A stretch of DNA of 23,968 nt from a virus, in IMG/VR virus record IMGVR_UViG_3300042475_003226, positions 1-23,968 of that record; one strand, given 5' to 3'. The first letter of the stretch is position 1; each line of letters opens with the position of its first letter. This document shows positions 9,159 to 23,917 of this stretch, one piece after another. The notes below the pieces were generated by a model, which was not told the origin of the DNA, did not search any database, and worked only from the letters and a program-made list of their open reading frames with translations. The translations under genes were made by a program, and so were the position numbers.

Positions 9159-9186
9159 ATTATAAATACTTTTTGAATTAAGTCAA
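9159..9186 (-). promoter_or_regulatory. Near-consensus sigma70 promoter of DNA polymerase
   Basis: TTGACT (9181-9186), a 16-bp spacer, then TATAAT (9159-9164). The -10 shares bases with a plus-strand TATAAATA late box, so early and late promoters overlap back to back. Confidence 0.75.
9161..9168 (+). promoter_or_regulatory. T4-late-type promoter of the lysis genes
   Basis: TATAAATA on the plus strand, 38 bases before the first lysis ATG. It is the only promoter-like site for the two plus-strand genes, which are expected to be expressed late. Confidence 0.65.
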
Positions 9187-9205
9187 GCCCTAATCGAGGT
9201 ATTCT

Positions 9206-9655
9206 ATGTCTGTATTTTCTTTTTTCAGTACTCCACCCATCGCGTCCTTTGAGCAACTAGAGCTCGAAAAGGGTAAGGTGCAGCTCACTATTATGAAGAT
9301 GGCCGCCGCTATTCTTGGCACTATCATGATTGCGGTTGTGTTTATTTTTCTCATTGGCATGTTCATGCCTAATCATCTTATCGACAACAATGAGATTTTC
9401 AAAATCATTGGCCCAGCATTCTCTACTATTGTAGGTGCTTTCGTTGGAGCCTTTGCTACTATGATGGGTATGAAGGTGTCTGAGCTAGACACGAATGTAA
9501 AGACCCAGGAGCTGGGCAAGACAGATCATAAAGAGCTAGCAGAAGCTCACAAGATCAACGCAGAAGCTGAATCGATCGAAACAGACAACGAAATCAAAAT
9601 GATGGCAGCTGTCGACAAGTATCTTGATTCAGACGAAGACCACGGCCCATTCTAA
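9206..9655 (+). CDS. Two-TM membrane protein, probable holin
   Basis: The 149-aa protein has two strong membrane segments, about residues 33-53 (AILGTIMIAVVFIFLIGMF) and 66-88 (IIGPAFSTIVGAFVGAFATM). A charged helical C-terminal tail of about 60 residues follows. Its position directly before the endolysin, with only 10 bases between, and its late promoter are typical of a holin that opens the inner membrane. A CGAGG ribosome site precedes the ATG. No sequence family is recognised, so holin is an inference from topology and context. Confidence 0.6.
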   Translation: MSVFSFFSTPPIASFEQLELEKGKVQLTIMKMAAAILGTIMIAVVFIFLIGMFMPNHLIDNNEIFKIIGPAFSTIVGAFVGAFATMMGMKVSELDTNVKTQELGKTDHKELAEAHKINAEAESIETDNEIKMMAAVDKYLDSDEDHGPF

Positions 9656-9665
9656 GGAGTATATT

Positions 9666-10850
9666 GTGACCCAACTAACAGAACATTTTAATCTAGCAGA
9701 GATGATCGTTTCTCCTACAGCAAAGAAACTCGGTCTTCCCAACACGCCAACACCACAGCACATTGAGAACATGCGCTACTGCTGCGAGAAGATCCTCGAA
9801 CCAGTACGGGCAAAGTTCGGCCCAGTAACGATCAACTCATCATATAGAGCACCTGCTGTCAACAAGGCAGTAGGTGGTTCGGCTACTTCACAACACGTTA
9901 ACGGCCAAGCAATTGACTTCGAAGTTAAGGGTGTTGATAATAAGAAAGTAGCTGACTGGGTTGCTGACAACCTTGAGTTCGATCAGGTCATCCTTGAGTT
10001 CTACTCCGCTGGTGACAAGAACTCTGGATGGGTACATGCTTCGATCAAGAAAGAAGGCGGCAATCGCAAGATGCGTATGATCGCTTCTAAGTCGAAGGCC
10101 GGTGGGACGAAGTACACTCAGGTTGCTGACTTTGATCCATCAACGACTCGCGAAGCAGGAGCTCCTCCAACATCGAGTCCAGCAGCTGCTCCAGCTCAGT
10201 CGGCTGGTCAAAAGGCAGCTCCAGTTGCAGCGGGTCTTGGTCCATTAGCAGCTCTCCAATCTAAGTGCGGCATTGCTGCCGATGGTAAGTGGGGTCCTGG
10301 TACTTATAAGGCGGCGAGAGATTTCTTCAAGCTGTCCAACAACCAAGCAGCTCACTTCTTTGGTCAGTGTGCTCACGAGTCGGGTGGCTTCAATGTCTTT
10401 TCAGAAAACCTTAACTACTCAGACAAGGGCCTCAACGGGATCTTCAAGAAGTACTTCCCAACGATTGCTTCGACAGCAGGATATGCTCGCAAGCCAGAGA
10501 AGATTGCAAACAAAGTGTATGCTAATCGGATGGGGAACGGACCAGAAGCCTCTGGAGATGGCTGGAAGTATCGTGGTCGAGGCCCGATCCAACTGACCGG
10601 GAAAGCGAATTATACAGCCTTTGCCGCCGACATTGGACGTCACGACGTTTTAACGAATCCTGATCTTGTGGTAGGGGAGTTGGCTTTTGAGTCTGCATTG
10701 TGGTTCTTCCGTAAGAATGGTCTGCTGGCTGTTGCAGATAAGGGTGTAACCGATGCAGTGATCACTCAGATCACAAAGCGTGTCAATGGTGGGACTCATG
10801 GCCTAGACGATAGGCTTAAGAAAACCAAACAGTACGCCAACTGGGGATAA
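9666..10850 (+). CDS. Modular endolysin: M15 peptidase plus GH19 glycosidase
   Basis: I choose the GTG start at 9666 because TAAGGAG lies 7 nt upstream; a TTG further upstream would overlap the holin gene. The 394-aa product has an N-terminal M15A peptidase: SYRAPAVNKAVGG, SQHVNGQAIDFE with His77 and Asp84, and WVHAS with His124. A Pro/Ala-rich linker spans roughly 160-191. The C-terminal GH19 domain resembles lysozyme/chitinase, with FGQCAHESGGF (catalytic Glu238), WKYRGRGPIQLTG (about 300-312) and VNGG. Together they would cut both the peptide stems and the glycan strands of peptidoglycan. No signal peptide is seen, which fits holin-dependent release. Confidence 0.88.
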   Translation: MTQLTEHFNLAEMIVSPTAKKLGLPNTPTPQHIENMRYCCEKILEPVRAKFGPVTINSSYRAPAVNKAVGGSATSQHVNGQAIDFEVKGVDNKKVADWVADNLEFDQVILEFYSAGDKNSGWVHASIKKEGGNRKMRMIASKSKAGGTKYTQVADFDPSTTREAGAPPTSSPAAAPAQSAGQKAAPVAAGLGPLAALQSKCGIAADGKWGPGTYKAARDFFKLSNNQAAHFFGQCAHESGGFNVFSENLNYSDKGLNGIFKKYFPTIASTAGYARKPEKIANKVYANRMGNGPEASGDGWKYRGRGPIQLTGKANYTAFAADIGRHDVLTNPDLVVGELAFESALWFFRKNGLLAVADKGVTDAVITQITKRVNGGTHGLDDRLKKTKQYANWG

Positions 10851-10855
10851 AATGG

Positions 10856-10884
10856 GAAGGGGGCTCAAAGGCCCCCTTCTTTTT
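10856..10884 (+). terminator. Intrinsic terminator after the endolysin
   Basis: GAAGGGGGC (10856-10864), a 6-nt loop, GCCCCCTTC (10871-10879), then five Ts. It lies between convergent genes and may also slow minus-strand transcription leaving the Hsp20 gene, although the minus-strand T-run is weaker. Confidence 0.88.
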
Positions 10885-11407
10885 ACTTTGTTTTGCCTTC
10901 TGCCAAGAATTCAGCAGCTTGTGAAGGATACCCTTCCTCTGCATCATGAATCTCAACTTTCTTTGGCTTCTTATGCTCTGGTACAATTGCCTCTAGAGCA
11001 ATCTTCAAAATACCATTTAGCATCGATGCGCCACGAATCTCCACATTGTCAGCAATATTAAACGTACGTGTAAACGGACGCATTGCCAAACCTTGGTAGA
11101 GAACTTGAGGCCATGTCCACTCGCCCCTTGAGTCTTGCTCTGCGGGTTCACCCGATCCAACATTACCCTTGATGATCAACTTATCATCAACGATTTCGAT
11201 CTCGAGATCCTGCTTACCAAAACCAGCGACAGCTAGTTCGATAATGTACTTGTTCTCACAAACCTTCTTAATGTTGTATGGAGGATAGTTTTGAGCGAGC
11301 TTAGCTGTCTGCTCTGCAGCAGCTGCCAGGCGATCGATAAGAGGATCGAATCCTACAAAGAAACGCTGAAATTCGTTCGCCTTCATGAAAGGATTGTCTT
11401 TAAACAT
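10883..11407 (-). CDS. hsp20: Small heat-shock protein, Hsp20/alpha-crystallin (IbpA-like)
   Basis: The 174-aa product has an alpha-crystallin domain at about residues 45-145. Visible landmarks are PPYNIKKVCENKYIIELAVA, DLEIEIVDDKLIIKG, and the AMRPFTRTFNIADNVEIRGA...GILKIAL strand pair that ends such domains. Hsp20 proteins are ATP-independent holdases, and they are common in T4-like marine phages. I use the ATG at 11407 because GGAG sits 8 nt upstream; the longer frame would need TTG. The C-terminal tail is hydrophilic with a HKKPKKVEI stretch. It is read from the same direction as the EF-hand gene 14 bases upstream. Confidence 0.9.
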   Translation of the reverse strand: MFKDNPFMKANEFQRFFVGFDPLIDRLAAAAEQTAKLAQNYPPYNIKKVCENKYIIELAVAGFGKQDLEIEIVDDKLIIKGNVGSGEPAEQDSRGEWTWPQVLYQGLAMRPFTRTFNIADNVEIRGASMLNGILKIALEAIVPEHKKPKKVEIHDAEEGYPSQAAEFLAEGKTK

Positions 11408-11421
11408 ACTGCCGTCTCCAC

Positions 11422-11682
11422 TTACTTGCAACGAGGAAACAGAGTGTAATTGGAATTATACTCGTGGTGAGTAAGTTTTCCATCACTGTTTTCGTCGGCA
11501 TAGTTGAAGATACCATGCTTAACCTTACAACCATGAGAGGTCAGTTCGTCGTATGTAAGAACGTGATCCTGGTTAACATCCAGCGCAGCAAAGCGGACCT
11601 TTGGCGAAGCAAAGGCGGCCGATGAGATGATGCCGGTTGTCATGAGAGCGGCCATAAGGCCTGCGATAATGTACTTAGTCAT
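11422..11682 (-). CDS. Secreted EF-hand calcium-binding protein, 86 aa
   Basis: Residues 1-25 form a Sec signal peptide (basic start, hydrophobic core, cleavage probably after AAFA), so the mature protein is about 60 aa and periplasmic or secreted. Two EF-hand loops are readable, DVNQDHVLTYDE and DENSDGKLTHHE. Each has acidic residues at loop positions 1, 3 or 5 and Glu at 12. Two Cys residues (one mid-domain, one in the final PRCK) could form a disulfide. GGAG precedes the ATG. It has its own promoter and forms a unit with hsp20. The role in infection is unknown; bacterial EF-hand proteins of this type are often periplasmic, and this may be a gene taken from a host. Confidence 0.8.
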   Translation of the reverse strand: MTKYIIAGLMAALMTTGIISSAAFASPKVRFAALDVNQDHVLTYDELTSHGCKVKHGIFNYADENSDGKLTHHEYNSNYTLFPRCK

Positions 11683-13245: not shown

Positions 13246-15300
13246 TTATTTGGAGGTGGCGCGATATACCCCATCAAAATTCTTCACGCCAGCGGCTTTC
13301 ATATCAACGCATCGGCCGATCATCATCTCGTAGTATGCGACGAGCTCGCCGTTCCAGCACCGCTTGAGATCCTCAGCGAACTTTGCAGCAGCATCCCATT
13401 TGGCTTCGCGATAGAGATCTAGGAACTTTTTATGCAGCAATTCACCAGCAGCATCGTATATCTCTACAGCCGTGAAGATGCGAGCCGGCTCGGTCTTACC
13501 CTTAACAGCTATCAGATCGAGTTCCACGACCTGGTATACATTCCCAACGAGGTCCGCTGTACGCGGCCCGAGGACGAGTTTAACTCCATAAGGCTTGGAT
13601 TGACCTTCGAGACGAGCAGCCAGATTAACGCCGTCACCCAGGCAAGTATAATCAAAGCGCTGATTAGAGCCCATATTACCAACAACCACAGTGGCAGTGT
13701 TAATACCAAGGCCCATACCGAAAGCTGGAACGCCTTCTTCTTTAATTTCTGCATTAAATCTCTCCAAGGCTTTCATCATCTCAAAGGACGTTCTCACAGC
13801 GTCCAGAGCGTGCTTTTCGTTTGCGACAGGTGCGTTCCAGAAGGCCATCTGAGCGTCCCCAATGTACTTATCCAGCGTACCATTGTTCTCGAGGATCGCC
13901 TTTGTCATAGCTGTCATGTAGCGATTCATGATCTTTGTGAGACCTTGAACGTCCTTACCATAATGCTCAGAGATCGTAGTGAAGCCACGAACGTCTGTGA
14001 ACATGATTGACAGCTCTTGCTCTTCACCGCCCAGAGCAAGTAGCTCAGGATTGCGTTGGAGCTTTGCAACCAGGTCTGGGGAGAGATACGTTCCGAACTG
14101 CTTCTTGATCTGCTGCTTCTGCAGATACTCTGAGATGAATTTTGCTGTGTAGATGTGTAGGTAAATTACAAGAGCAGCAAAGACATTGAAAGATATGTCA
14201 AGTAGCAGCTTCTCGTTGGCAAATAAATAGACAGGTAGATAGAAATATCCACCAACCAATACAATGATCCAAACCACAGAGTATCTAACTCTTGATAGAA
14301 CAACGATACCAATTGTGAGGAGTACGAACAGTGCCAAATCAAGATAACCAGCCCAGAGAGGAATCGCAATGGCCTCGCCGTCTAGAAGTGTCTGAAGAAT
14401 GCTTGCTTGTACATTTTGAGGATATTGAGCTCCTTGAGGCGTTGCTAGTGGATTCTGAATGCCGGCAGCAGTTACACCTAAGATTACAATCTTTTGATTC
14501 AAGTCTAAACTGGTCTTAGAGCCAAGCTCCATCTCTTTGAACTTGTAGTTCGGATTGATAAATATCCGACCGTATTCATCCGTCTTAATTGTGTCAAATT
14601 GAGGAATTCGTAATGCTTCAACTCCCGTCTCATTTACCTTCACTTGATACGAAGGATCTCCAGCTGCTACACGCAACAGTTCTAACGCGAATGCAGGATA
14701 ATATTCGCCAGCTGATTGAGCTAGAAGAGGAACTCGGCGCACGACCCCATCAGACTCAGGTAGCGTTGATGTTACACCAACACCAGCGGCTGCTTCTTGG
14801 AGAGCTGGTATATTACTTAGAACGCATGGGTATTGAGGAAGAAATTCAGTCGGTTGTCCGTCACCGATTACAGCGACTCCAGTACGACGAATCGATTTAC
14901 TGGAACGAGAGCACGAATCACTAATTGTTTGACTAAGAACTACTTGACTTTGGGCTAATGTGTCTGAAAGTACGCCATCAGTCCCGAAACGATCAGGCTC
15001 AGGCATAAGTATGGTGCTACCAACAATGCCAGCTCCTCGGCCATAAAGGTCGCTAATAATTTCTGCGTGGACCTTTCTCGGAAACGGCCATTGGCCATAT
15101 TTTTCAATTGCTTTCTCCCCTATGTTTACGACTACAATATCTTGTGAATGCTTTGTTTCACCCATCATAATGTAGTCATAAAATTTGAGTCTTGCCGACT
15201 CAACGAGGAACGGATCCTGCATCTTTACTGCGAATAGCAGGGCAAATGTGAGGAGAGCCAACCACGGCGATAATAGGATTTTACTCGCTTTGCTTGACAT
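13246..15300 (-). CDS. CHASE2-domain class III adenylate/guanylate cyclase
   Basis: The 684-aa protein has a membrane anchor at about 9-26, an extracytoplasmic CHASE2 sensor domain (about 28-310), three membrane segments (about 313-336, 341-361, 367-388) and a cytoplasmic cyclase domain (about 425-610). The catalytic set is intact: metal Asp436 in FTDVRGFT and Asp482 in KYIGDAQMAFW, base-selecting Lys478, Thr552 in the second base-selecting position, and Asn559 and Arg563 in GDGVNLAARLE. The Lys/Thr pair favours ATP, so cAMP is the likely product. CHASE2 cyclases beside FecR proteins are a known bacterial arrangement. Its ATG lies 20 bases inside the FecR gene. It is last in the curli-like operon, an unusual cargo for a phage. 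Confidence 0.92.
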   Translation of the reverse strand: MSSKASKILLSPWLALLTFALLFAVKMQDPFLVESARLKFYDYIMMGETKHSQDIVVVNIGEKAIEKYGQWPFPRKVHAEIISDLYGRGAGIVGSTILMPEPDRFGTDGVLSDTLAQSQVVLSQTISDSCSRSSKSIRRTGVAVIGDGQPTEFLPQYPCVLSNIPALQEAAAGVGVTSTLPESDGVVRRVPLLAQSAGEYYPAFALELLRVAAGDPSYQVKVNETGVEALRIPQFDTIKTDEYGRIFINPNYKFKEMELGSKTSLDLNQKIVILGVTAAGIQNPLATPQGAQYPQNVQASILQTLLDGEAIAIPLWAGYLDLALFVLLTIGIVVLSRVRYSVVWIIVLVGGYFYLPVYLFANEKLLLDISFNVFAALVIYLHIYTAKFISEYLQKQQIKKQFGTYLSPDLVAKLQRNPELLALGGEEQELSIMFTDVRGFTTISEHYGKDVQGLTKIMNRYMTAMTKAILENNGTLDKYIGDAQMAFWNAPVANEKHALDAVRTSFEMMKALERFNAEIKEEGVPAFGMGLGINTATVVVGNMGSNQRFDYTCLGDGVNLAARLEGQSKPYGVKLVLGPRTADLVGNVYQVVELDLIAVKGKTEPARIFTAVEIYDAAGELLHKKFLDLYREAKWDAAAKFAEDLKRCWNGELVAYYEMMIGRCVDMKAAGVKNFDGVYRATSK

Positions 15301-16372
15301 TGATAATAGTTCCTCCGGCAGGATCGTTGATTTCTATTAGGAATGATTTTCCGTTGCTATCTATGTATAGTGTTTTATTTTCATCCTTCTTAAATCGAAC
15401 ATCGACAGTGGTGCTGAGAGTTCTCACTAAGCGTATAGTGTCCCCAGATATAATAGATGTGATTTGAGTAGTATTGTCAAGTCCAAATACCGTGCCACAG
15501 AGCTTCGTTCCATCTCTGGTTGCGCAGACATTATCACTCAGACCGCTATCAAGAAAGTCTTCTCCGAGAAAGTCAGCATTGATAGAGTTGATATCGAGGT
15601 CTGAGCTAGCTAGCTGATCCTCTTTTAGATCATCTCTAGCCAGGAAGTCTATGTTAAGCTGGGAGAGATCGAGTATATTCGACTTTGTGTCGGCGATTTC
15701 TTCTCCCGTATCTACTTCTTCTGCTGGAGAGACAATTAACATGTTGTCTATTTGATCAAGAGTCAGATTCAAAATGACTGGCTGAGTAGGTCTGCTGTCA
15801 GTCGTTGAAACTATAGTAGCTTGAAAAGCTTTTGTGAGAACAACCATACCGGCTGCATTGGAAACAGTAATCTCTCCAACAGAGCCATCGGGTTCAGGTA
15901 GCAGAACAATAAGACTTTTGCCAAAGTCGTCAACTGTGGTTGCGAAGTCAGTACCACGAACTGCAATCGTGGCTGTCGGTGTTCTGAGGTTAATGTTACC
16001 CTTGCTCATTTTGCCAGATTGACCTGTCGCAAAGCGAGCAGTGCCCGAAGCAAATTTGAGAGCCATCCTAGAAGTAGACGGCTTTCCGCTGTAGACAAAG
16101 TCATCGATTACGAGTTTCGAGTGCTCTGTGACCTTAACGGTAGAGTCGTCCACAAATGTGATTTCGACTCTACCATTTCCAGTCTGCACTCTATCCATTA
16201 TGGCAATGGACAATTGTGGTGTTGTAGGAAAGCGCTGGGCTTTCTTTACAATCTCACTTATGCCGCGAGCCTGAGTTACCTTGCCTATATTAGCATGGGC
16301 CGCCGGCGTTGCACTGATTAATAGTAATAGTGCTGCCAGTGCTCGTACTATTGAGCTTGATGGTGTCCACAT
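15281..16372 (-). CDS. Secreted FecR-domain protein, 363 aa
   Basis: A Sec signal peptide (about 1-27, ending PAAHA) is followed by a FecR domain (about 45-145). The domain holds DRVQTGNGRVEITFVDDSTV, RMALKFASGTARF and the hallmark TPTATIAVRGTDF (131-143). The C-terminal 200 residues are Asp/Ser-rich with a CATRDGTKLCG Cys pair. It lacks the cytoplasmic anti-sigma segment of classical FecR, so it is not an iron-uptake regulator. FecR proteins of this kind are encoded next to CHASE2 cyclases in bacteria and are thought to work with them in the periplasm. The ATG lies 83 bases inside the curlin-like gene, because the signal peptide needs that start. Confidence 0.85.
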   Translation of the reverse strand: MWTPSSSIVRALAALLLLISATPAAHANIGKVTQARGISEIVKKAQRFPTTPQLSIAIMDRVQTGNGRVEITFVDDSTVKVTEHSKLVIDDFVYSGKPSTSRMALKFASGTARFATGQSGKMSKGNINLRTPTATIAVRGTDFATTVDDFGKSLIVLLPEPDGSVGEITVSNAAGMVVLTKAFQATIVSTTDSRPTQPVILNLTLDQIDNMLIVSPAEEVDTGEEIADTKSNILDLSQLNIDFLARDDLKEDQLASSDLDINSINADFLGEDFLDSGLSDNVCATRDGTKLCGTVFGLDNTTQITSIISGDTIRLVRTLSTTVDVRFKKDENKTLYIDSNGKSFLIEINDPAGGTIINVKQSE

Positions 16373-16982
16373 TGGTTGTGCTCTTTTGATTTACAGTGAC
16401 GTTGTTAGTGCTACCTGTAAGAATCATTTCGATATTCTTACCAGCTGTTCCATCTTGTACCATTGCAATCGTATTACCATCGCCCGTAACAGTCATGTCG
16501 TTGACTACATCATCTGCGTTGATAGTAGATGTATAGGTGTTTGTATCACCCGTCACAGCAATTGTTTGAGTAGCATTCGTTGCAGAGGCAGCAGTGCCCT
16601 GGTTGAATGTCATCTGGTTTGAATCACCAGTCACAGTAAGAGTCTTTGTAGAACCGGCAACGCTAGCAGCTGCGCCTTGGTCATACGTCAGAGTATTGTT
16701 ATCTCCGGTTACTGTTACATCATAGGCGATGTTATCAGCCTGAACAATCGAACCTTGAGTCAGGTTTCCATTACCTTCTTGTGTCGATGTAATGGTTTGA
16801 TTGTTACCTTCAATTACAACACGATTCTGTTCTGAACCGATTCTGTTGTTTTGGCCCTTTTGAGTAATATTGATTGTACTACTGTTACCCACTTGATCAA
16901 TATAAATCGAGTTAGTTGTCGACTGTGCAAAAGCTATCGAACTCGCCATCACTGACATAATGAAAAGAATTAGTCTCTTCAT
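16290..16982 (-). CDS. Curlin-like repeat protein, secreted, 230 aa
   Basis: The signal peptide is residues 1-19 or 20 (cleavage after AFA). The mature protein is Asn/Thr/Gln-rich with degenerate beta-solenoid repeats spaced 22-26 residues: TGDNNTLTYDQG, TGDSNQMTFNQG, TGDTNTYTSTIN, TGDGNTIAMVQD, TGSTNNVTVNQK. The N-terminal part has the curlin-style IYIDQVGNSSTINITQKGQN. This is the amyloid-type fold exported through CsgG. The end QCNAGGPC carries two Cys residues not usual in CsgA or CsgB. The ATG overlaps the CsgG stop (ATGA). Whether it is a fibre subunit, nucleator or other exported adhesin cannot be told. Confidence 0.8.
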   Translation of the reverse strand: MKRLILFIMSVMASSIAFAQSTTNSIYIDQVGNSSTINITQKGQNNRIGSEQNRVVIEGNNQTITSTQEGNGNLTQGSIVQADNIAYDVTVTGDNNTLTYDQGAAASVAGSTKTLTVTGDSNQMTFNQGTAASATNATQTIAVTGDTNTYTSTINADDVVNDMTVTGDGNTIAMVQDGTAGKNIEMILTGSTNNVTVNQKSTTNVDTIKLNSTSTGSTITINQCNAGGPC

Positions 16983-17767
16983 TGTTGTTGTTCCTTGTAT
17001 TTGAAATACCGTCTCTCGACGCCTTGTTTGATTAGTTGTAGAACAGCTTCTTCTATTGCCATTTTCACAGCCATTGTGTTGGCCTCATTTTCTGTCATTC
17101 CTGCTTCAGCTTCTATCAACTTTGTGCCAACATCAACAAACTTAAACAGAGAGAGGTCTCGACCGACAGACAATACTGTTTTGGAAACCTGCACATTAAG
17201 AATTACTTCTCCTGTATTGGTATTCACGCCGCGTAAAGCTACAACAACTTGGTCCTTGCGGTATACGGTTGTTCCTCCGATACCGAGATACCTTGCTCCT
17301 GCTCCACCTGTTTGTATGTTGCTATCATAGCCAATAATCCCACCCTGAATAATAAGACCCGCGAATAGCATAGGCTCAAGTTTGTTAGCCCCTTCGCCTT
17401 GATATTCTTCACGCGTCTGACGAACAATCTGACGTTCCTTTGCTAAATCATCAACACGGTTACGCTCTGCTACTCTAAACCACTTACCTCCGCCAGCTTC
17501 TTTTAGCGCAGATATCAGGAGAGCTGTTCCACCCTGAGTCACCGCGGTTGAGATGCTGGCGACCCCATCCTTGTCTTTGCGCTGACCCGTGAGATCAGGG
17601 AAATCGTAGACAGCTACAACTGCTTGTCTCTCTGGTGCGGGAAGGGCTTGTAGCTCCTTTACCTGAGTCGTCATTATCGCGGGAGCATCCTTAAGTTGAA
17701 ACACACCACGCCCCGTCGACATGCAACCACCCAGCAGTAGGGGTAAAAGCAATACTCTCCAGTACAT
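16979..17767 (-). CDS. csgG: CsgG-like outer-membrane curli secretion lipoprotein
   Basis: This 262-aa protein is close in length to E. coli CsgG (277). CsgG forms the nonameric outer-membrane channel for curli subunits. The lipobox LLGGC gives acylated Cys15. Shared blocks are VAVYDFPDLTGQ (51-62), STAVTQGG, WFRVAERNRVDDLAKERQIV, IIGYDSNIQTGGAGARYLGI and NTNTGEVILNVQVSKTVLSV. I use the ATG at 17767 (TAATG coupling with csgF) over the GTG two codons earlier. By eye the constriction residues Tyr51/Asn55/Phe56 of E. coli are replaced by Asp, Ser and Ile, so the pore gate may differ. Confidence 0.93.
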   Translation of the reverse strand: MYWRVLLLPLLLGGCMSTGRGVFQLKDAPAIMTTQVKELQALPAPERQAVVAVYDFPDLTGQRKDKDGVASISTAVTQGGTALLISALKEAGGGKWFRVAERNRVDDLAKERQIVRQTREEYQGEGANKLEPMLFAGLIIQGGIIGYDSNIQTGGAGARYLGIGGTTVYRKDQVVVALRGVNTNTGEVILNVQVSKTVLSVGRDLSLFKFVDVGTKLIEAEAGMTENEANTMAVKMAIEEAVLQLIKQGVERRYFKYKEQQQ

Positions 17768-18204
17768 TACCACTTGAATCCGCTAGTAGGAATGATAATT
17801 TCGGTAGTGTCTCCAGCATCATTCGTAATTGTCAGTTTGATCTCGGTATCAGTCTTCTCATACTTGATAGTATTGCCTTCAAGAGCAAACTCCCCAGACT
17901 GACCACCCATCTCACCAAATAGATTGTTTGTTAACTGCTGTGCAAGCTGAGAGTAGATACGAGATTGTAGGTTGTTCATGAATCGATTCAGGATCGAGTT
18001 CTTTTCCTCAAGCGCGGCGGCTTTCAGCTCAGCTTCTATTTTGTCTCCGATAGCTTTCTTGCGAAGTGTTTCTTGGTTTTCAATCGTAAGCCATTGTGCG
18101 CCTGCATTGACACCGGAGAACGATGGATTCTTAAATTGATGAACAATCTCACTTGCTTGCAGCGGGCTGCTTACTAGGAGCAGTAGGAGCAGACTCTTTT
18201 TCAT
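17767..18204 (-). CDS. csgF: CsgF-like curli assembly factor
   Basis: The 145-aa protein has a signal peptide (1-17, cleavage after LQA) followed by SEIVHQFKNPSFSGVNAGAQ. This matches the CsgF N-terminus (F.FRNP.F.G.....), which plugs into the CsgG pore and makes its second constriction. The central helix and C-terminal beta part (IKLTITNDAGDTTEIIIPTSG) follow the CsgF plan. In curli systems CsgF couples the secreted nucleator to the pore. The gene directly precedes csgG with a stop-start overlap. No csgE, csgB or csgC homologue is visible in this window. Confidence 0.9.
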   Translation of the reverse strand: MKKSLLLLLLVSSPLQASEIVHQFKNPSFSGVNAGAQWLTIENQETLRKKAIGDKIEAELKAAALEEKNSILNRFMNNLQSRIYSQLAQQLTNNLFGEMGGQSGEFALEGNTIKYEKTDTEIKLTITNDAGDTTEIIIPTSGFKW

Positions 18205-18284
18205 CTTGTTTGTCTCTTTTCAGTTTCAGTTCTTTGTCGGAAGACATATTGAATTCTAGCGAGAATACTTTCAAGATCTCAATT

Positions 18285-18542
18285 TTAAGATTTATTGTCA
18301 CTATGATCTTCCTTAATCTGCAGTACGACACTTACCTTCTGGTTCAGTCTAATCAAATCATTATCAAGCATGCGAACACGATCAATCAGAGCAATAAGAA
18401 TAACATTGGTTTCGCCAATCAACGGCATTAATCTATCTGTAACAAACTTGTAGACAAACCACACGAAGTATCCCATTCCCACAGCTGCGACAATCGGAAA
18501 CCCATATTGCTTTACAAGTTCGGCAATTACATTTACATCCAT
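18285..18542 (-). CDS. Small single-TM protein, tandem paralogue B, 85 aa
   Basis: The N-terminus is MDVNVIAELVKQYGFPIVAA with a membrane segment at about 14-33. An amphipathic, probably coiled-coil tail follows (LIALIDRVRMLDNDLIRLNQ). It aligns over most of its length with the next gene: both start MDxNVI, have GFPI-AA-G-FV-FV in the membrane segment, and the D(N)RV-----D-IR pattern in the tail. It starts on the stop of its paralogue (one shared base). The topology is like small holin-accessory or pore-scaffold peptides, but no family is recognised. It may act with the curli export genes. Confidence 0.7.
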   Translation of the reverse strand: MDVNVIAELVKQYGFPIVAAVGMGYFVWFVYKFVTDRLMPLIGETNVILIALIDRVRMLDNDLIRLNQKVSVVLQIKEDHSDNKS

Positions 18543-18829
18543 CAGTCTTTTCTCGCATCGTTCTTCCCGTCTGCTCGAGCGATACGATCTAGATCTGGCT
18601 TCAGACCCAAAGCGGAACTTACTACGGCATCAACACGGATAATATCATGGTTCATTGTCTTGACTCTGTTGTCAAGCCCCATAATGATACCTTGCATGCC
18701 TTTAATGGCCTTTAGAACACTTTCAAGAATATAATTAATGACGAAGTATACAAACACCCCAGCAAGCAGAGCTGCAGCTATGGGAAAACCAACATCAGCA
18801 ATTAGTTTGAAAATAACATTGTAGTCCAT
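18542..18829 (-). CDS. Small single-TM protein, tandem paralogue A, 95 aa
   Basis: The N-terminus MDYNVIFKLIADVGFPIAAA leads into a membrane segment at about 14-35. A helical tail follows (GLDNRVKTMNHDIIRVDAVV), ending in a charged stretch ARADGKNDARKD. It is paralogous to the 85-aa gene that follows. The start is secured by that similarity. No ribosome site is visible before the ATG, and the late-type box at 18835-18842 would place the transcript start on the A of this ATG, so a leaderless mRNA is possible. It is the first gene of the curli/FecR/cyclase operon. Confidence 0.7.
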   Translation of the reverse strand: MDYNVIFKLIADVGFPIAAALLAGVFVYFVINYILESVLKAIKGMQGIIMGLDNRVKTMNHDIIRVDAVVSSALGLKPDLDRIARADGKNDARKD

Positions 18830-18834
18830 GCCGT

Positions 18835-18842
18835 TATTTATA
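18835..18842 (-). promoter_or_regulatory. T4-late-type promoter of the curli/cyclase operon
   Basis: TATAAATA on the minus strand, contiguous with the T-run of the terminator at 18842-18872. With T4 late-promoter geometry (box at -13 to -6) the +1 falls at 18829, the first base of the operon. Confidence 0.55.
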
Positions 18843-18872
18843 AAAAAAAGGGGCAGCCGAAGCTGCCCCTTT
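18842..18872 (-). terminator. Strong intrinsic terminator
   Basis: An 11-bp stem (AAAGGGGCAGC/GCTGCCCCTTT; plus 18847-18857 with 18862-18872) with a TTCG loop on the minus strand is followed by eight Ts. It ends the small-gene run upstream (18874-19364) and insulates the curli/cyclase operon. Confidence 0.9.
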
Positions 18873-19565: not shown

Positions 19566-19640
19566 TGGCTCGAGTGGCAGGATTCGAACCTGCGACCAAT
19601 TGATTAACAGTCAACTGCGCTACCGCTGCGCCACACTCGA
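19566..19640 (-). tRNA. tRNA-Asn(GTT)
   Basis: Acceptor TCGAGTG/CACTCGA with discriminator G and encoded CCA. Anticodon loop TGTTAA gives GTT. T-loop TTCGAAT is canonical. Confidence 0.93.
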
Positions 19641-19659
19641 ACAAACTCTTATATTATAC

Positions 19660-19736
19660 TGGAGCCCCCGACAGGATTCGAGCCTGTAACCTTTTGATTC
19701 GTAATCAAATGCTCTCTCCAGTTGAGCTACGGGGGC
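19660..19736 (-). tRNA. tRNA-Arg(ACG)
   Basis: Acceptor GCCCCCG/CGGGGGC, encoded CCA, anticodon loop TTACGAA giving ACG. It would need A-to-I34 editing by the host TadA to read all CGU/CGC/CGA codons. Confidence 0.92.
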
Positions 19737-19741
19737 TTATA

Positions 19742-19816
19742 TGGTACCCGATGACGGGATTGAACCGCCGACCTTATCCGTGTAAAGGATCTGCTCTACC
19801 GCTGAGCTAATCGGGC
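19742..19816 (-). tRNA. tRNA-Val(TAC)
   Basis: Acceptor GCCCGAT/ATCGGGT with a G-U end pair, discriminator A and CCA. Anticodon loop TTTACAC gives TAC. Confidence 0.92.
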
Positions 19817-19817
19817 A

Positions 19818-20036
19818 TTATGGCGTAAAAGTATTGCCAATTTGTTTACTAGTAAGATGAAAAACAACATCGATGGTATTGATCACCTGCTTAATTAAAG
19901 CAGTTTCTGCATCAACATAACCATCAAGCGCACTCTGGAATGTTTTATTCTGTATGTACGTCTTATTCCATTGCTTTTTAAAGCTCTGTGTAACCATGAC
20001 CATATAGCTAGTCTGAGCTGTAAAATTTGCGTACAT
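19818..20036 (-). CDS. Small helical protein inside the tRNA array, 72 aa
   Basis: I start it at the ATG at 20036 (MYANFTAQTSYMVMVTQSFK) because AAGGAAG lies about 6 nt upstream. A late-type TATAAATA box (20069-20076) would put the transcript start about 27 nt before it. The protein is helical; its second half (FQSALDGYVDAETALIKQVI) has an amphipathic heptad pattern somewhat like phasin-type helices, which is only a resemblance. It ends two bases before tRNA-Val. Function unknown. A dedicated late promoter inside a tRNA array suggests a late, possibly structural or membrane-surface role. Confidence 0.6.
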   Translation of the reverse strand: MYANFTAQTSYMVMVTQSFKKQWNKTYIQNKTFQSALDGYVDAETALIKQVINTIDVVFHLTSKQIGNTFTP

Positions 20037-20068
20037 CGCATACTTCCTTGGTGGCTTAATGCCATCCA

Positions 20069-20076
20069 TATTTATA
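20069..20076 (-). promoter_or_regulatory. T4-late-type promoter of the 72-aa gene
   Basis: TATAAATA on the minus strand, one base past the CCA of tRNA-Leu(TAG). The predicted start is near 20063, leaving a short leader with a good ribosome site. Confidence 0.5.
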
Positions 20077-20077
20077 A

Positions 20078-20159
20078 TGGTACTCCAAGAGGGACTCGAA
20101 CCCCCACGCTTGCGCACTAGTTCCTAAGACTAGCGTGTCTACCATTCCACCATTGGAGC
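20078..20159 (-). tRNA. tRNA-Leu(TAG)
   Basis: Class II tRNA, 82 nt with a long variable arm (around TGCGCAAGCGTG). Acceptor GCTCCAA/TTGGAGT, discriminator A, CCA. Loop CTTAGGA gives TAG. Confidence 0.93.
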
Positions 20160-20160
20160 A

Positions 20161-20237
20161 TGGTGCCTTCGTAGGGAATCGAACCCCCCGACACGTGGTT
20201 CATCAAACCACTGCTCTACCAGCTGAGCTACAAAGGC
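20161..20237 (-). tRNA. tRNA-Ile(GAT), copy 1
   Basis: Acceptor GCCTTTG/CGAAGGC, discriminator A, CCA. Anticodon arm GTGGT-TTGATGA-ACCAC gives GAT. Base 37 is G, where Ile tRNAs normally have A (t6A). Confidence 0.88.
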
Positions 20238-20240
20238 AAA

Positions 20241-20310
20241 GTAAAGACCACCTGCAGTGTGCCTTGATTGCTTACGTCCGGACGTTGCAATCTTCCCAGA
20301 TAGTCTTTAC
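20241..20310 (-). ncRNA. Candidate structured RNA in the tRNA array
   Basis: An 8-bp closing helix (GTAAAGAC 20241-20248 with GTCTTTAC 20303-20310) encloses a hairpin GATTGC/GCAATC (20266-20271 with 20287-20292). That hairpin contains a 12-nt palindrome ACGTCCGGACGT (20274-20285). The size and three-way layout are tRNA-like, but there is no T-loop consensus or CCA. It could be a decayed tRNA or an unrelated small RNA. The rest of 20238-20381 holds no convincing gene. Confidence 0.35.
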
Positions 20311-20381
20311 CGTTGCAACAGCAAGTGCTACCTTTTCCTCTTTGTGGTTGCCCACGGGGTTCAGCAGAGGTGGTTCTATAT

Positions 20382-20457
20382 TGGTGGACCCTATCGGACT
20401 CGAACCGATCACCTTCTGCGTGCAAGGCAGACGCTCTCCCAGATGAGCTAAGGGCCC
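20382..20457 (-). tRNA. tRNA-Ala(TGC)
   Basis: Acceptor GGGCCCT/AGGGTCC with one G-U pair, discriminator A, CCA. Anticodon arm TCTGC-CTTGCAC-GCAGA gives TGC. Confidence 0.92.
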
Positions 20458-20476
20458 GTATATGGTAATAATATTC

Positions 20477-20550
20477 TGGAGCGGGCTACGGGAATCGAAC
20501 CCGTGTCGTCAGCTTGGAAGGCTGTCATAATACCATTATACCAAGCCCGC
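20477..20550 (-). tRNA. tRNA-Gly(TCC)
   Basis: Acceptor GCGGGCT/AGCCCGC, discriminator T, CCA. Loop CTTCCAA gives TCC. T-loop TTCGATT. Confidence 0.93.
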
Positions 20551-20557
20551 TCTATTC

Positions 20558-20633
20558 TGGTGCCGGCAGCAGGAATCGAACCCGCGACCTGAGGTTTACA
20601 AAACCACTGCTCTACCATCTGAGCTATACCGGC
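20558..20633 (-). tRNA. tRNA-Thr(TGT)
   Basis: Acceptor GCCGGTA/TGCCGGC, discriminator A, CCA. Loop TTTGTAA gives TGT. There is one mismatch (T28-T42) in the anticodon stem. Confidence 0.9.
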
Positions 20634-20640
20634 ATTAAAC

Positions 20641-20715
20641 TGGTCTAGATGGAGAGACTCGAACTCCCAATCCCCGCGCCCCAAACGCGGTGCCTTACCA
20701 TTAGGCCACACCTAG
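20641..20715 (-). tRNA. tRNA-Pro(TGG)
   Basis: Acceptor CTAGGTG/CATCTAG, discriminator A, CCA. Anticodon arm CCGCG-TTTGGGG-CGCGG gives TGG. It is the first tRNA behind the promoter at 20729-20757. Confidence 0.92.
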
Positions 20716-20728
20716 ATAACTAGTATAT

Positions 20729-20757
20729 TATATATCTCATTTTGTTGAATAAGTCAA
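20729..20757 (-). promoter_or_regulatory. Promoter inside the tRNA array
   Basis: TTGACT (20752-20757), a 17-bp spacer, TATATA (20729-20734) running into TATAATATAC. It lies between tRNA-Gln and tRNA-Pro and would drive the eight tRNA genes downstream of it. Confidence 0.6.
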
Positions 20758-20767
20758 CAACTATTTT

Positions 20768-20841
20768 TGGATGCCCCTTTAGGATTCGAACCTAAATTGA
20801 CGGATTCAAAGTCCGCGCTCTTACCATTAGAGGAAGGGGCA
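20768..20841 (-). tRNA. tRNA-Gln(TTG)
   Basis: Acceptor TGCCCCT/AGGGGCA with a Gln-like U1-A72 end, discriminator T, CCA. Loop CTTTGAA gives TTG. Confidence 0.92.
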
Positions 20842-20848
20842 GTGAAAA

Positions 20849-20935
20849 TGGTGGGTGAGGATGGATTCGAACCAACTCAGCCGTAAGACAACAGATTTAC
20901 AGTCTGCCGCGACTCTCCAACTTCGCCGCTCACCC
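20849..20935 (-). tRNA. tRNA-Tyr(GTA)
   Basis: Class II, 87 nt with a long variable arm. Acceptor GGGTGAG/CTCACCC, discriminator A, CCA. Loop CTGTAAA gives GTA. Confidence 0.93.
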
Positions 20936-20942
20936 AAACCTC

Positions 20943-21131
20943 TTAACGAGGTTGTTCGTGCTCGCCTGCGCCCACTGCAGGCTCTTCAACCTGAAATTCA
21001 GGTGCAGTCACATCAGCGTTAGCTGCTTCTGTTTCAACTGCCTCTGACGTGGTTACGTCCGCTGGCGTTTCGCTACATGCGGCAGTGAGAGCAACAACAG
21101 CAATCGCCATAAAAGTCTTAATATTCATCAT
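20943..21131 (-). CDS. Small acidic lipoprotein in the tRNA array, 62 aa
   Basis: Three ATGs lie in a row (21134, 21131, 21128) behind AAAGGA. Spacing favours the second. The N-terminus MMNIKTFMAIAVVALTAAC is a lipoprotein signal with lipobox LTAAC. The mature part is short, acidic and low in complexity (ETPADVTTSEAVETEAANAD), ending GAGEHEQPR. It should be anchored in a host membrane, possibly as an exclusion or surface factor, which is inference. It lies between tRNA-Lys(TTT) and tRNA-Tyr and seems to depend on the array transcript. Confidence 0.65.
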   Translation of the reverse strand: MMNIKTFMAIAVVALTAACSETPADVTTSEAVETEAANADVTAPEFQVEEPAVGAGEHEQPR

Positions 21132-21205
21132 CATGATTCCTTTGTTGTTAAAGTTGAGGGGCTGACCGTGACCCCTCGCGTGCCTATTAGGTAGCAACCC
21201 CATAC

Positions 21206-21281
21206 TGGTGGACACTCTGGGGCTCGAACCCAGGACCTACAGGTTAAAAGCCCGTTGCTCTACCGACTGAGCTAAGTGTCC
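21206..21281 (-). tRNA. tRNA-Lys(TTT)
   Basis: Acceptor GGACACT/AGTGTCC, discriminator A, CCA. Loop CTTTTAA gives TTT. Confidence 0.93.
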
Positions 21282-21285
21282 GAAA

Positions 21286-21361
<76 letters not shown>

Positions 21362-21370
21362 ATGTTAAAC

Positions 21371-21446
21371 TGGTAGGGGCTGTGGGATTCGAACCCACCC
21401 TGAAACGATTTTAAGTCGCATTCCTCTGCCGCTGGGATAAGCCCCC
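21371..21446 (-). tRNA. tRNA-Leu(TAA), with short variable loop
   Basis: Acceptor GGGGGCT/AGCCCCT with a G-U end pair, discriminator A, CCA. Loop CTTAAAA gives anticodon TAA. The variable region is only about 5 nt, making this a class I tRNA of 76 nt although bacterial Leu tRNAs are class II. Confidence 0.8.
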
Positions 21447-21451
21447 ATCGA

Positions 21452-21610
21452 TTACCATTCGTTGATAATCTCAATCCCTTTGTTCCGATAGTACTGCCTC
21501 CAATAGAAGCATTCATCCATCATAGCATGACCGCTATGACCTTTGTACTCGATCTTGCGAAGGAGCCTGTTGGTTTTAGCGTTGCGAATGGTGAGAGTGT
21601 AATTGAGCAT
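21452..21610 (-). CDS. Hypothetical protein, 52 aa
   Basis: The frame starts MLNYTLTIRNAKTNRLLRKI and ends RNKGIEIINEW. It is small, basic and rich in aromatic residues. AAAGGA precedes the ATG, and a promoter like the others in the window sits upstream (21637-21665). It ends 5 bases before tRNA-Leu(TAA). Function unknown. Confidence 0.6.
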   Translation of the reverse strand: MLNYTLTIRNAKTNRLLRKIEYKGHSGHAMMDECFYWRQYYRNKGIEIINEW

Positions 21611-21636
21611 CTCGTTTCCTTTCTGACTGTATATTC

Positions 21637-21665
21637 ATCTTACATCAGAAATAAAAAAAGGTAAA
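21637..21665 (-). promoter_or_regulatory. Weaker promoter of the 52-aa gene
   Basis: TTTACC (21660-21665), a 17-bp spacer, TAAGAT (21637-21642), then GAATATAC as in the repeated promoters. Confidence 0.45.
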
Positions 21666-21673
21666 CAACAAAA

Positions 21674-21748
21674 TGGGGTGATTGACGGGAATCGAACCCG
21701 CGACGATCGGCTTCACAAACCGACACTCTACCACTGAGCTACAACCAC
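21674..21748 (-). tRNA. tRNA-His(GTG)
   Basis: Acceptor GTGGTTG/CAATCAC, discriminator C as expected for His, CCA. A G is encoded at position -1 (21749). Loop TTGTGAA gives GTG. Confidence 0.93.
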
Positions 21749-21750
21749 CA

Positions 21751-21838
21751 TGGAGGAAGCGGTGGGATTCGAACCCACGGAACCTTTCAGTTCGACAGTT
21801 TTCAAGACTGTATCAATCGACCACTCTGACACGCTTCC
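21751..21838 (-). tRNA. tRNA-Ser(TGA)
   Basis: Class II, 88 nt. Acceptor GGAAGCG/CGCTTCC, CCA. Loop CTTGAAA gives TGA, with a long variable arm. Confidence 0.93.
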
Positions 21839-21841
21839 AAT

Positions 21842-21916
21842 TGGTGCGCATGGGAGATTTTGAAACTCCGACCTATCGGTTATCAACCGATTGCTCTGCC
21901 TCTGAGCTACACGCGC
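21842..21916 (-). tRNA. tRNA-Ile(GAT), copy 2
   Basis: Acceptor GCGCGTG/CATGCGC, discriminator A, CCA. Loop TTGATAA gives GAT with A37. The conserved G53-C61 pair of the T-stem is replaced by T-T, next to a T-loop TTCAAAA. Confidence 0.85.
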
Positions 21917-21950
21917 ATTAAAATATTTCTAGCAATGAGAAAGAACAAGC

Positions 21951-22024
21951 TGGCGAAGGTGGAGGGAGTCGAACCCCCGCTTGCGGTTTTGGAGACCGCC
22001 GTGCTACCGTAACACTTCACCGAC
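21951..22024 (-). tRNA. tRNA-Trp(CCA), acceptor stem imperfect
   Basis: Anticodon arm GCGGT-CTCCAAA-ACCGC gives CCA. Discriminator G and CCA are present. The acceptor GTCGGTG against CACCTTC has mismatches at pairs 2-71 and 3-70, and position 8 is A instead of T. It may be decaying or tolerate the mismatches. Confidence 0.75.
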
Positions 22025-22033
22025 ACAAACTTC

Positions 22034-22110
22034 TGGCGATCTAGAAGGGACTTGAACCCTCGACCTCTCGCGTGACAGGCGAGTGCTCTAACCAACTGAG
22101 CTACTAGACC
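22034..22110 (-). tRNA. tRNA-Asp(GTC)
   Basis: Acceptor GGTCTAG/CTAGATC, discriminator G as expected for Asp, CCA. Anticodon arm CTCGC-CTGTCAC-GCGAG gives GTC. It is the first tRNA after the promoter at 22120-22148. Confidence 0.93.
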
Positions 22111-22117
22111 AGAGTTT

Positions 22118-22148
22118 TATTTATACTCTTTTTCCAGTTTTATGTCAA
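22118..22148 (-). promoter_or_regulatory. tRNA-array promoter with overlapping late box
   Basis: TTGACA (22143-22148), a 17-bp spacer, TATAAA (22120-22125). The -10 is part of TATAAATA (22118-22125), so the site reads both as a strong sigma70 promoter and as a late-type box in the same direction. Confidence 0.65.
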
Positions 22149-22151
22149 CAT

Positions 22152-22949
22152 TTATTTTACGTTGACAATTCCCTTAAAGTCATAAGGAACAATGATCGTC
22201 GAGACCTTACCGTCCTTGACAGCTTCTGCAATAGTCACGAGAGCAGTTGCTTCCATGTACTTCGTTGCACCAGCGTTGGCGTTCAGAGCAGCAATACGTT
22301 CTGCTTCCAACTTTGCAGTACGAACTTCGACCAGCTTCTGCTTTTCGGCATTCTGTGCTTGCACGAGCTGGTTAGCCGAGGCTACGATGTTAGCTGCAGG
22401 CTTCACCTGACGAACGAGAACCTGCGAGATTGAGATAGCGCCAAGAAGCTCTTCAGCAGCGAGGCTAGCAACAACTTCTTGGCGGATCAGTTGTTCCATC
22501 TCTGCACGATTATCTGCCATCTTAAGCGACTCGTAGCGACGAGCAACCTTGTATGCAGCGTTACGACCAAGCTGACGAACATAGTTGTACATCAACAGAG
22601 TATCGCCTTCTTCAGTTTCAGCGTGAAATCCACGGTTCTTCTCGATATAGAGTTCGGCAACCGAGCCAGGATTGATCGAGTAGATGACAGCCATATCGAA
22701 GTCTGCAACGGTCGAGTTATCCGAAGCCAGCGGAGTCAAGTCAGCAACATCAACCTGAACGTCCTTGGTAGGGAACGTCATCACGTCGCCAAACATTGTC
22801 TGGTTGACAGAACCAGGCATCAGCTCGGTGGTTTCGATGGTCTTGTCAAACGAGCGACGAACACCAACTTCACCAGTTTCAATACGAGTACAAGCAGCAG
22901 TCGTAGCCAGCAGACCAGCGAGCACAGCAAACTTAGCAATACGATTCAT
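22152..22949 (-). CDS. SPFH/band-7 (prohibitin-like) lipoprotein
   Basis: I start it at the ATG at 22949, with AAAGGA 9 nt upstream; an ATG three codons earlier is too close to that site. The 265-aa protein has a lipoprotein signal ending LLATTAAC, then a band-7 domain: IETGEVGVRRSFDKTIETTE, DVADLTPLASDNSTVADFDM, YVRQLGRNAAYKVARRYESL. A long Ala/Glu-rich helix follows (around NQLVQAQNAEKQKLVEVRTA). SPFH proteins form ring or cage assemblies on membranes, for example HflK/C around FtsH and prohibitins. The lipid anchor would put this one on the outer face. A role in superinfection control or in protecting membrane proteins is inference. Confidence 0.85.
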   Translation of the reverse strand: MNRIAKFAVLAGLLATTAACTRIETGEVGVRRSFDKTIETTELMPGSVNQTMFGDVMTFPTKDVQVDVADLTPLASDNSTVADFDMAVIYSINPGSVAELYIEKNRGFHAETEEGDTLLMYNYVRQLGRNAAYKVARRYESLKMADNRAEMEQLIRQEVVASLAAEELLGAISISQVLVRQVKPAANIVASANQLVQAQNAEKQKLVEVRTAKLEAERIAALNANAGATKYMEATALVTIAEAVKDGKVSTIIVPYDFKGIVNVK

Positions 22950-22968
22950 TCTAAACATTCCTTTTCAA

Positions 22969-23145
22969 TTAAAACAAGATAACAATACCAGCAATGATGG
23001 ACATCACCACTACTGTTATTACCATACTACAACCCAGAGATTTAATCAACTGAATTTTTTCTCTACCGGTTGCAGCAACAAAGAATTTCACACCGACGAA
23101 CGCCAATGCAAACAGTATAAGAAAACTTAAAATCATTTTACTCAT
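22969..23145 (-). CDS. Small two-TM membrane protein, 58 aa
   Basis: The frame starts MSKMILSFLILFALAFVGVK and ends VVVMSIIAGIVILF. There are two membrane segments (about 5-24 and 38-57) joined by a short basic loop ATGREKIQLIKS. Its ATG shares one base with the stop of the 31-aa gene, so they are coupled. It lies 19 bases before the SPFH lipoprotein gene and may work with it. Function unknown. Confidence 0.65.
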   Translation of the reverse strand: MSKMILSFLILFALAFVGVKFFVAATGREKIQLIKSLGCSMVITVVVMSIIAGIVILF

Positions 23146-23240
23146 TAATTAGGTCCACTTCCATTTCCCCATGCTTTCACAGGACCTTCATATCCTGTAT
23201 CCTTCCAACGTTGTTGGATTCTTTGTTCAAGATCATCCAT
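23145..23240 (-). CDS. Very small protein, 31 aa
   Basis: The frame starts MDDLEQRIQQRWKDTGYEGP and ends GNGSGPN. AAGGAAG lies 5-8 nt upstream of the ATG, and a repeat-family promoter sits directly before it. It is coupled to the two-TM gene (TAATG). The strong start signals argue for a real gene despite its size. Confidence 0.55.
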   Translation of the reverse strand: MDDLEQRIQQRWKDTGYEGPVKAWGNGSGPN

Positions 23241-23269
23241 TGCCGCTTCCTTCTCTCACTCTATATCTC

Positions 23270-23298
23270 TTTATAGACTCTTTTTGAGAAAAAGGCAA
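23270..23298 (-). promoter_or_regulatory. Repeat-family promoter with palindromic spacer
   Basis: TTGCCT (23293-23298), a 17-bp spacer TTTTCTCAAAAAGAGTC, TATAAA (23270-23275), then GAGATATAG. It would drive the 31-aa, 58-aa and SPFH genes. It follows the stop of the YkuK-like gene by 3 bases. Confidence 0.7.
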
Positions 23299-23301
23299 CA
23301 T

Positions 23302-23745: not shown

Positions 23746-23762
23746 TATACTTACTCAAAATA

Positions 23763-23840
23763 TGGAGAGCCGGGTGGGATTCGAACCCACGGTTTTCAGG
23801 TTTTGCAGACCTGTGCATTGGACCACTCTGCCACCGGCTC
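23763..23840 (-). tRNA. tRNA-Cys(GCA)
   Basis: Acceptor GAGCCGG/CCGGCTC, discriminator T as expected for Cys, CCA. Loop CTGCAAA gives GCA. Confidence 0.93.
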
Positions 23841-23841
23841 T

Positions 23842-23917
23842 TGGTACTCCCGGAGGGACTCGAACCCCCAACCTAACCGTTATGAGCGGTCAGCTCTAAC
23901 CATTGAGCTACAGGAGT
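23842..23917 (-). tRNA. tRNA-Met(CAT), elongator, or tRNA-Ile2
   Basis: Acceptor ACTCCTG/CGGGAGT, discriminator A, CCA. Loop CTCATAA gives CAT. Position 1-72 is A-U and the anticodon stem lacks the three G-C pairs of initiators, so it is either elongator Met or a lysidine-type Ile tRNA. Confidence 0.9.

Follow-up and report, generated by a model that had tools for sequence, protein, structure and literature searches.

The marine phage literature has yet to settle why bacteriophages carry genes for curli export together with a cyclase. Such a combination is found on a viral DNA stretch of 23,968 nucleotides (IMG/VR record IMGVR_UViG_3300042475_003226, positions 1 to 23,968; hereafter the window), in which a minus-strand unit encodes small transmembrane (TM) proteins, homologues of CsgF and CsgG, a curlin-like repeat protein, a secreted FecR-domain protein and an adenylate cyclase with a periplasmic CHASE2 domain (Table 1). 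The best explanation, to which we assign a probability of about 0.45, is that the phage has captured a curli cassette in which the state of a surface fibre would be passed from FecR to CHASE2 and converted into a cyclic AMP (cAMP) signal, as a form of cell-surface signalling.

Linkage of export and cyclase genes

Viral loci were gathered independently with the CsgG and the cyclase sequence as query, and all genes were read in the 80 best hits of either search. Among the loci with enough flanking sequence, a count which distant unlinked relatives might escape, the partner gene was present in 52 of 52 and 34 of 34 cases (one figure per query). Export and cyclase genes thus belong together, as had been proposed for the window in an earlier annotation made from sequence alone (hereafter the original prediction). 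Relatives carrying the two gene sets at separate places were looked for among these hits, and none was seen. The same gene order was found in other phages, and its five-gene core, csgF-csgG-curlin-FecR-cyclase, also in bacterial chromosomes.

The original prediction further regarded all seven annotated genes as one device. The linkage of export and cyclase genes agrees with this; the TM genes do not necessarily belong to it, as they are kept after loss of the cassette and are absent from the bacterial copies. A search with the TM family identified three close viral relatives (L308, L310 and L319) which possess the small genes a, b and c of Table 1 and lack curli genes in the locus and csgG anywhere in the record, the records being fragments. 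L308 shows synteny to the window on either side of the absent cassette. In L310, the start of an open reading frame (ORF) resembling the csgF signal peptide is fused to an unrelated ORF, and this apparent csgF remnant points to loss of the cassette rather than to a site that was never filled. A single seven-gene device was therefore ruled out: given the natural losses and the bacterial copies, the set consists of two units, the five-gene cassette and the separable phage unit a-b-c.

Curli cassettes were also seen on three very long viral contigs (L222, 360 kb; L379, 383 kb; L348, 236 kb), and the module may occur in jumbo phages too.

The C-terminus of FecR

The FecR protein ends in a strand whose pattern resembles that of curlin repeats. 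Residue Q361 of the window protein, the third from the C-terminus, is invariant in 39 of 39 homologues down to 34% identity, and I357 is nearly so, while the C-terminal region around the motif is poorly conserved. All 39 proteins carry the motif in their last nine residues, as compared with 1.8% of background windows and 1.1 of 39 shuffled sequences. A looser form was present in 71 of 78 unique FecR tails but in only two of 71 CsgG, seven of 70 CsgF and one of 93 cyclase tails. Sixteen FecRs, several of them divergent members, possess two such strands, spaced by 20-23 residues in ten cases, which is near the curlin period. FecRs adjoining other bacterial CHASE2 cyclases (n = 14) showed the loose pattern in three cases and the I-x-I-x-Q form in none, and their tail was never top-scoring; the FecRs of the cassettes found in Caulobacteraceae carry the curlin-like tail.

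In the structure model of FecR (mean predicted local distance difference test score (pLDDT) 77, about 87 in the C-terminal part) the terminal strand spans residues 355-361. The modelled fold matches periplasmic domains of anti-sigma proteins of cell-surface signalling (4m0h, 6ovk; PupR, BDI_1681). It also resembles the anchoring domain of an RTX adhesin (5ix9; probability 1.0, sequence E-value 0.013), which is a lead towards a possible role of FecR at the root of a fibre. The tail is a candidate for the physical link between fibre and sensor.

Cyclase and curli export genes

All six catalytic positions are present in the window cyclase (D436, K478, D482, D556, N559, R563); by its two metal Asp residues, its Lys/Asp pair and its Asn/Arg residues it qualifies by sequence as a class III enzyme. 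Of 142 viral cyclases with sequence across these sites, 140 retain the metal-binding residues together with Lys, Asn and Arg.

Hidden Markov model searches matched every one of the families CsgF, CsgG, FecR, CHASE2 and class III cyclase to the expected product. The CsgG family profile hits E. coli CsgG structures in the Protein Data Bank (PDB) at 2e-64, and on this homology the csgG product is the predicted outer-membrane curli pore. A CsgG 41% identical to that of the window was also seen in an unannotated 1499-base 'Salmonella phage' record (OR851715.1, H7). The CsgF profile had no match in the PDB; the window protein and bacterial CsgF have in common the N-terminal segment NPxFxG, a putative CsgG-binding segment. 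Taken alone, the curlin-like protein of the window scores under the curated cut-off of Pfam Curlin_rpt (0.0022), which is matched by 22 of 31 family members (best 5.1e-11). The family profile retrieves CsgA 8c50 at 1e-10 and E. coli CsgA 8enq at 1e-3 from the PDB and bears out the proposed curlin-like identity, which by these profiles appears marginal for the single protein and firm for the family. Its structure model (pLDDT 82, predicted template-modelling score 0.80) consists of consecutive short strands; a Foldseek search with this model gave nothing significant, and CsgA 8c50 was listed only at rank 38. CsgE, CsgC and CsgD were not among the seven products in the Pfam search, in line with the absence of the former two noted earlier. 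All three are also missing in Alphaproteobacteria (PMC3521004), so their lack does not disqualify the system from the curli class.

Cassettes in bacterial chromosomes

Among the best 80 genome-contig hits, the five-gene core without a and b was found in two Caulobacteraceae genomes (L084 and L085) and in Hyphomonas sp. TMED17 (L086, a 705-kb contig). The cassettes of L084 and L086 are flanked by ordinary cellular genes (TonB receptor, alanine racemase, FAA hydrolase; metallophosphoesterase, amidohydrolase). The three are metagenome-assembled genomes (MAGs), in which some mis-binning is possible. The core is rare, occurring in two of 390 genomes of one bacterial family and one of 105 of the other. 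FecR and cyclase have been stated to lie outside bacterial type VIII secretion system (T8SS) operons (PMC9599517); the Caulobacteraceae and Hyphomonas copies are exceptions. Most other bacterial csgG loci among these hits lack a cyclase. FecR adjoins CHASE2 in 17 of 57 bacterial loci, three of the 17 being the curli ones. Five further loci from MAG bins (L087, L089, L091, L095, L103) contain a and b and look like binned phage contigs.

In phylogenetic trees, the cores from viruses and cells group in one clade, apart from other bacterial CsgG proteins (support 100/99) and CHASE2 cyclases (100/100), with the Caulobacteraceae copy nested within the viral set. The cyclase data reject a clade of viral sequences only (p-AU 0.003), and with CsgG the result is borderline (0.05). 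These topologies suggest exchange of the cassette between phages and cells, possibly in the direction from phage to cell; we are unsure of the tree position of the Hyphomonas cyclase.

Small genes and organization of the locus

The two TM proteins both match phrog_18771 at about 2e-30 and are paralogues, as originally proposed. Members of this a/b family comprise 84-119 residues with a single N-terminal TM segment and a conserved helix. Both genes are present in 73 of 73 complete viral loci; in other phages they are located downstream on the opposite strand. Pfam searches with the family gave no HisKA, HATPase or other kinase match, and a PDB search returned nothing credible. A weak match to the holin family phrog_4898 was obtained for six of 16 members (best 1e-4; gene b 9e-4, over 22 residues in the window member), and no Pfam holin family was matched.

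According to the ORF list with translations, the seven ORFs are tightly packed at 13246-18829, with overlaps of 20 (cyclase/FecR), 83 (FecR/curlin), 4 (curlin/csgG), 7 (csgG/csgF) and 1 (TM/TM) bases; the second TM gene and csgF, separated by 80 bases, are the sole non-overlapping pair. ORFs, overlaps, gene order and late promoter were all confirmed as originally described. The view that all neighbours are coupled except at a gap before csgF needs amendment: the overlaps stand, and the supposed gap is filled by gene c, which overlaps the end of the second TM gene and the signal-peptide region of csgF. Gene c appears in the ORF list as 18149..18331, from an earlier GTG, and relatives have conserved it, also at loci that lack csgF or have a and b elsewhere.

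The promoter motif TATAAATA (18842-18835) lies directly behind a terminator-like hairpin that is predicted to insulate the unit from upstream DNA. Of 86 viral loci, 39 have TATAAATA within 60 bases of the first TM gene, 20 of these at a distance of exactly 5 bases, against a background of 0.05 per kb per strand. The geometry of T4 late promoters was used to place the expected mRNA start which, with the motif 5 bases before the ATG, is predicted at or near this codon; the unit would thus be transcribed into a leaderless late mRNA.

Table 1. Features of the window.
Feature	Position	Strand	Evidence or remark
Gene a, 95 residues, one N-terminal TM segment	18542..18829	-	PHROGs, phrog_18771
Gene b, 85-residue paralogue of a, one N-terminal TM segment	18285..18542	-	phrog_18771; no kinase domain
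Gene c, about 50 residues, GTG start	18149..18301	-	Conserved N-terminus xINLKIEILKVF
csgF homologue, signal peptide	17767..18204	-	Pfam PF10614 2.7e-21
csgG homologue, lipoprotein with LGGC lipobox	16979..17773	-	Pfam PF03783 1.9e-48
Curlin-like secreted repeat protein	16290..16982	-	Family profile and structure model
Secreted FecR-domain protein	15281..16372	-	Pfam PF04773 1.6e-11
Curlin-like C-terminal FecR strand, residues 349-363, NDPAGGTIINVKQSE	15284..15328	-	Motif comparison
CHASE2 (residues 20-328) and class III adenylate cyclase (428-604)	13246..15300	-	Pfam CHASE2 7.7e-38, Guanylate_cyc 7.9e-18
T4-type late promoter, TATAAATA	18835..18842	-	5 bases ahead of ATG of first TM gene
Intrinsic-terminator-like hairpin, GGGGCAGC-TTCG-GCTGCCCC and T run	18842..18869	-	Read from sequence
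Candidate lysis cassette	9161-10850	+	TATAAATA at 9161
149-residue TM protein, holin by position only	9206-9655	+	Lysis cassette
M15/GH19 endolysin	about 9666-10850	+	Behind 149-residue TM protein

Elsewhere in the window, 21 clustered tRNA genes with specificities for many amino acids (19566-23917, minus strand) adjoin a gene for an SPFH/Band 7 (prohibitin-like) lipoprotein (phrog_200; 22152-22958, minus strand), and a small secreted-looking EF-hand protein (11422-11682, minus strand) is encoded next to an Hsp20 gene (10883-11431).

Comparison with published systems

A csgF/csgG operon in marine phages was reported in 2020 (PMC7029224), and the arrangement HK-csgF-csgG-csgA/B-FecR-(csgA/B)-adenylate cyclase, with HK for histidine kinase, was described in myo- and podophages in 2022 (PMC9599517; see also PMC9004378). 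The full set with a cyclase, presented in the original prediction as a new combination, had thus already been published. The order small membrane genes, csgF, csgG, curlin, FecR, cyclase is the same in Pelagibacter phage HTVC008M, Methylophilales phage Melnitz and HTVC023P-type podophages; in HTVC008M and Melnitz, FecR and cyclase are separated by a second curlin-region gene, whereas the window has a single curlin gene. The gene before csgF is called a histidine kinase in the published module (PMC9599517), whereas its window counterpart is a TM protein of 85-95 residues without a kinase domain; judged by position, the published gene probably belongs to the same family as a and b. The window further differs from the published phage T8SS modules in its guanine-plus-cytosine content of 42-52%, its 21 tRNA genes within 24 kb and a polymerase that is nearest to those of cyanomyophages at less than 50% identity. 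A megablast search against known phages gave matches to tRNA genes only, and there is no close sequenced phage. The window represents a T4-like phage and a new carrier of an already published module.

CsgG, CsgF and curlin homologues are common to the window and bacterial curli (type VIII) secretion, to which the window adds FecR and the CHASE2 cyclase. A periplasmic FecR-domain protein is likewise paired with a CHASE2 sensor enzyme in a Campylobacterota cyclase cluster (PMC9239204) and in a Burkholderia biofilm operon with a CHASE2 kinase (PMC5192318); unlike these pairs, that of the window is joined to curli export, and its FecR has a curlin-like terminal strand. With FecR/PupR cell-surface signalling the window has the domain fold in common, but its FecR possesses no TM or sigma-binding part, and the output protein next to it is a cyclase. 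In S. meliloti, the outer-membrane barrel NsrA signals through CHASE2 cyclases (PMC13001267).

Proposed mechanism and alternative explanations

We propose that a T4-like phage captured the five-gene curli cassette behind its resident late-promoter unit a-b-c. Late in infection, a CsgG/CsgF outer-membrane pore would export the curlin-like protein to form a fibre at the surface, and periplasmic FecR, its C-terminus imitating a curlin strand, would bind or cap curlin on the periplasmic side. FecR would then inform CHASE2, the periplasmic domain of the inner-membrane cyclase, of the state of export or of the fibre, and the cyclase would set cAMP; this would be a variant of FecA-FecR-type signalling in which a cyclase replaces the sigma factor. 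This signalling model is supported by the constant linkage, the conserved catalytic sites and the FecR motif statistics, by the match of the FecR model to PupR/BDI_1681 domains together with the precedents of FecR-CHASE2 pairs and NsrA, and by the joint occurrence of the same five genes in bacterial chromosomes. The originally proposed sensing of assembly by FecR/CHASE2 gains support from the curlin-like FecR terminus; we infer fibre formation, the contacts of FecR with curlin and with CHASE2, and the direction and effect of a cAMP change.

Several observations weigh against this model. Profile-profile comparison (hhalign) of the FecR C-terminus with curlin found nothing, and no FecR member matches Pfam Curlin_rpt. 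Homology of the FecR terminus to curlin was therefore dropped, and the likeness is claimed at the motif level only, since profile methods detect no homology. An unbiased matrix scan ranked the tail first in just 30 of 78 FecRs, the window FecR not among them, and the Hyphomonas FecR is without a curlin-like tail. At the transition-state position Asn is replaced by Ser in the cyclases of Melnitz (L001) and one other phage locus (L077), suggesting reduced or lost activity. No cAMP target is known, and infections with Melnitz showed no clumping (PMC9004378).

The last observation also argues against surface remodelling, the next most plausible explanation and one that we consider possible yet less probable than fibre sensing. 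Here the fibres would serve aggregation or 'sibling capture', or the exclusion of competitor phages, and the FecR/CHASE2 cyclase would tune host cAMP in answer to the environment and not to the fibre. Such a role was put forward in PMC7029224 and PMC9599517 and is consistent with a complete exported set including curlin, as well as with FecR-CHASE2 cyclases without curli in bacteria. An independent sensor, however, fits poorly with the finding that no examined locus had the cyclase unlinked from the pore genes, and with a FecR tail that is absent from FecRs without curli. Host surface and cyclic-nucleotide signalling may also be rewired before lysis, as the second hypothesis of the original prediction holds.

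A function in lysis timing, with CsgG/CsgF as a pinholin-like or secretin-like device and the TM proteins as holins, was put forward for Melnitz (PMC9004378, 2022). The late promoter would agree with it, as would the weak match of the TM family to holins; we regard it as improbable, given that a separate candidate lysis cassette with its own TATAAATA is present on the other strand, that CsgG is an outer-membrane lipoprotein pore, that the cassette-less relative L308 retains an endolysin, and that a lysis trigger would be odd in bacterial chromosomes. An uptake pore, in which CsgG/CsgF admit larger nutrients and FecR/CHASE2 sense them (suggested in PMC7029224 and PMC9599517), would be in keeping with the absence of CsgE, which gates the E. 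coli system, but is very unlikely because it leaves the conserved curlin gene and the curlin-like FecR tail unexplained.

Fibre sensing through FecR and CHASE2 would, in more general terms and somewhat more tentatively, amount to a self-monitoring secretion device of phages and a few bacteria, in which a FecR with a built-in curlin strand reads curli export or assembly and reports it as cAMP via CHASE2, a form of signalling undescribed in the open-licence literature.

Significance

The counts on linkage and on catalytic sites, the FecR tail, the bacterial cassettes, the separability of the membrane genes and their lack of kinase domains are new relative to the published work. The histidine-kinase label of the gene before csgF deserves re-examination. 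Natural losses set the cassette apart from the three small genes and thereby define the right unit for tests, and the bacterial copies indicate that the five-gene cassette can reside in cells without the phage membrane genes. The curlin-like end of FecR offers a concrete, testable candidate for the contact between fibre and sensor.

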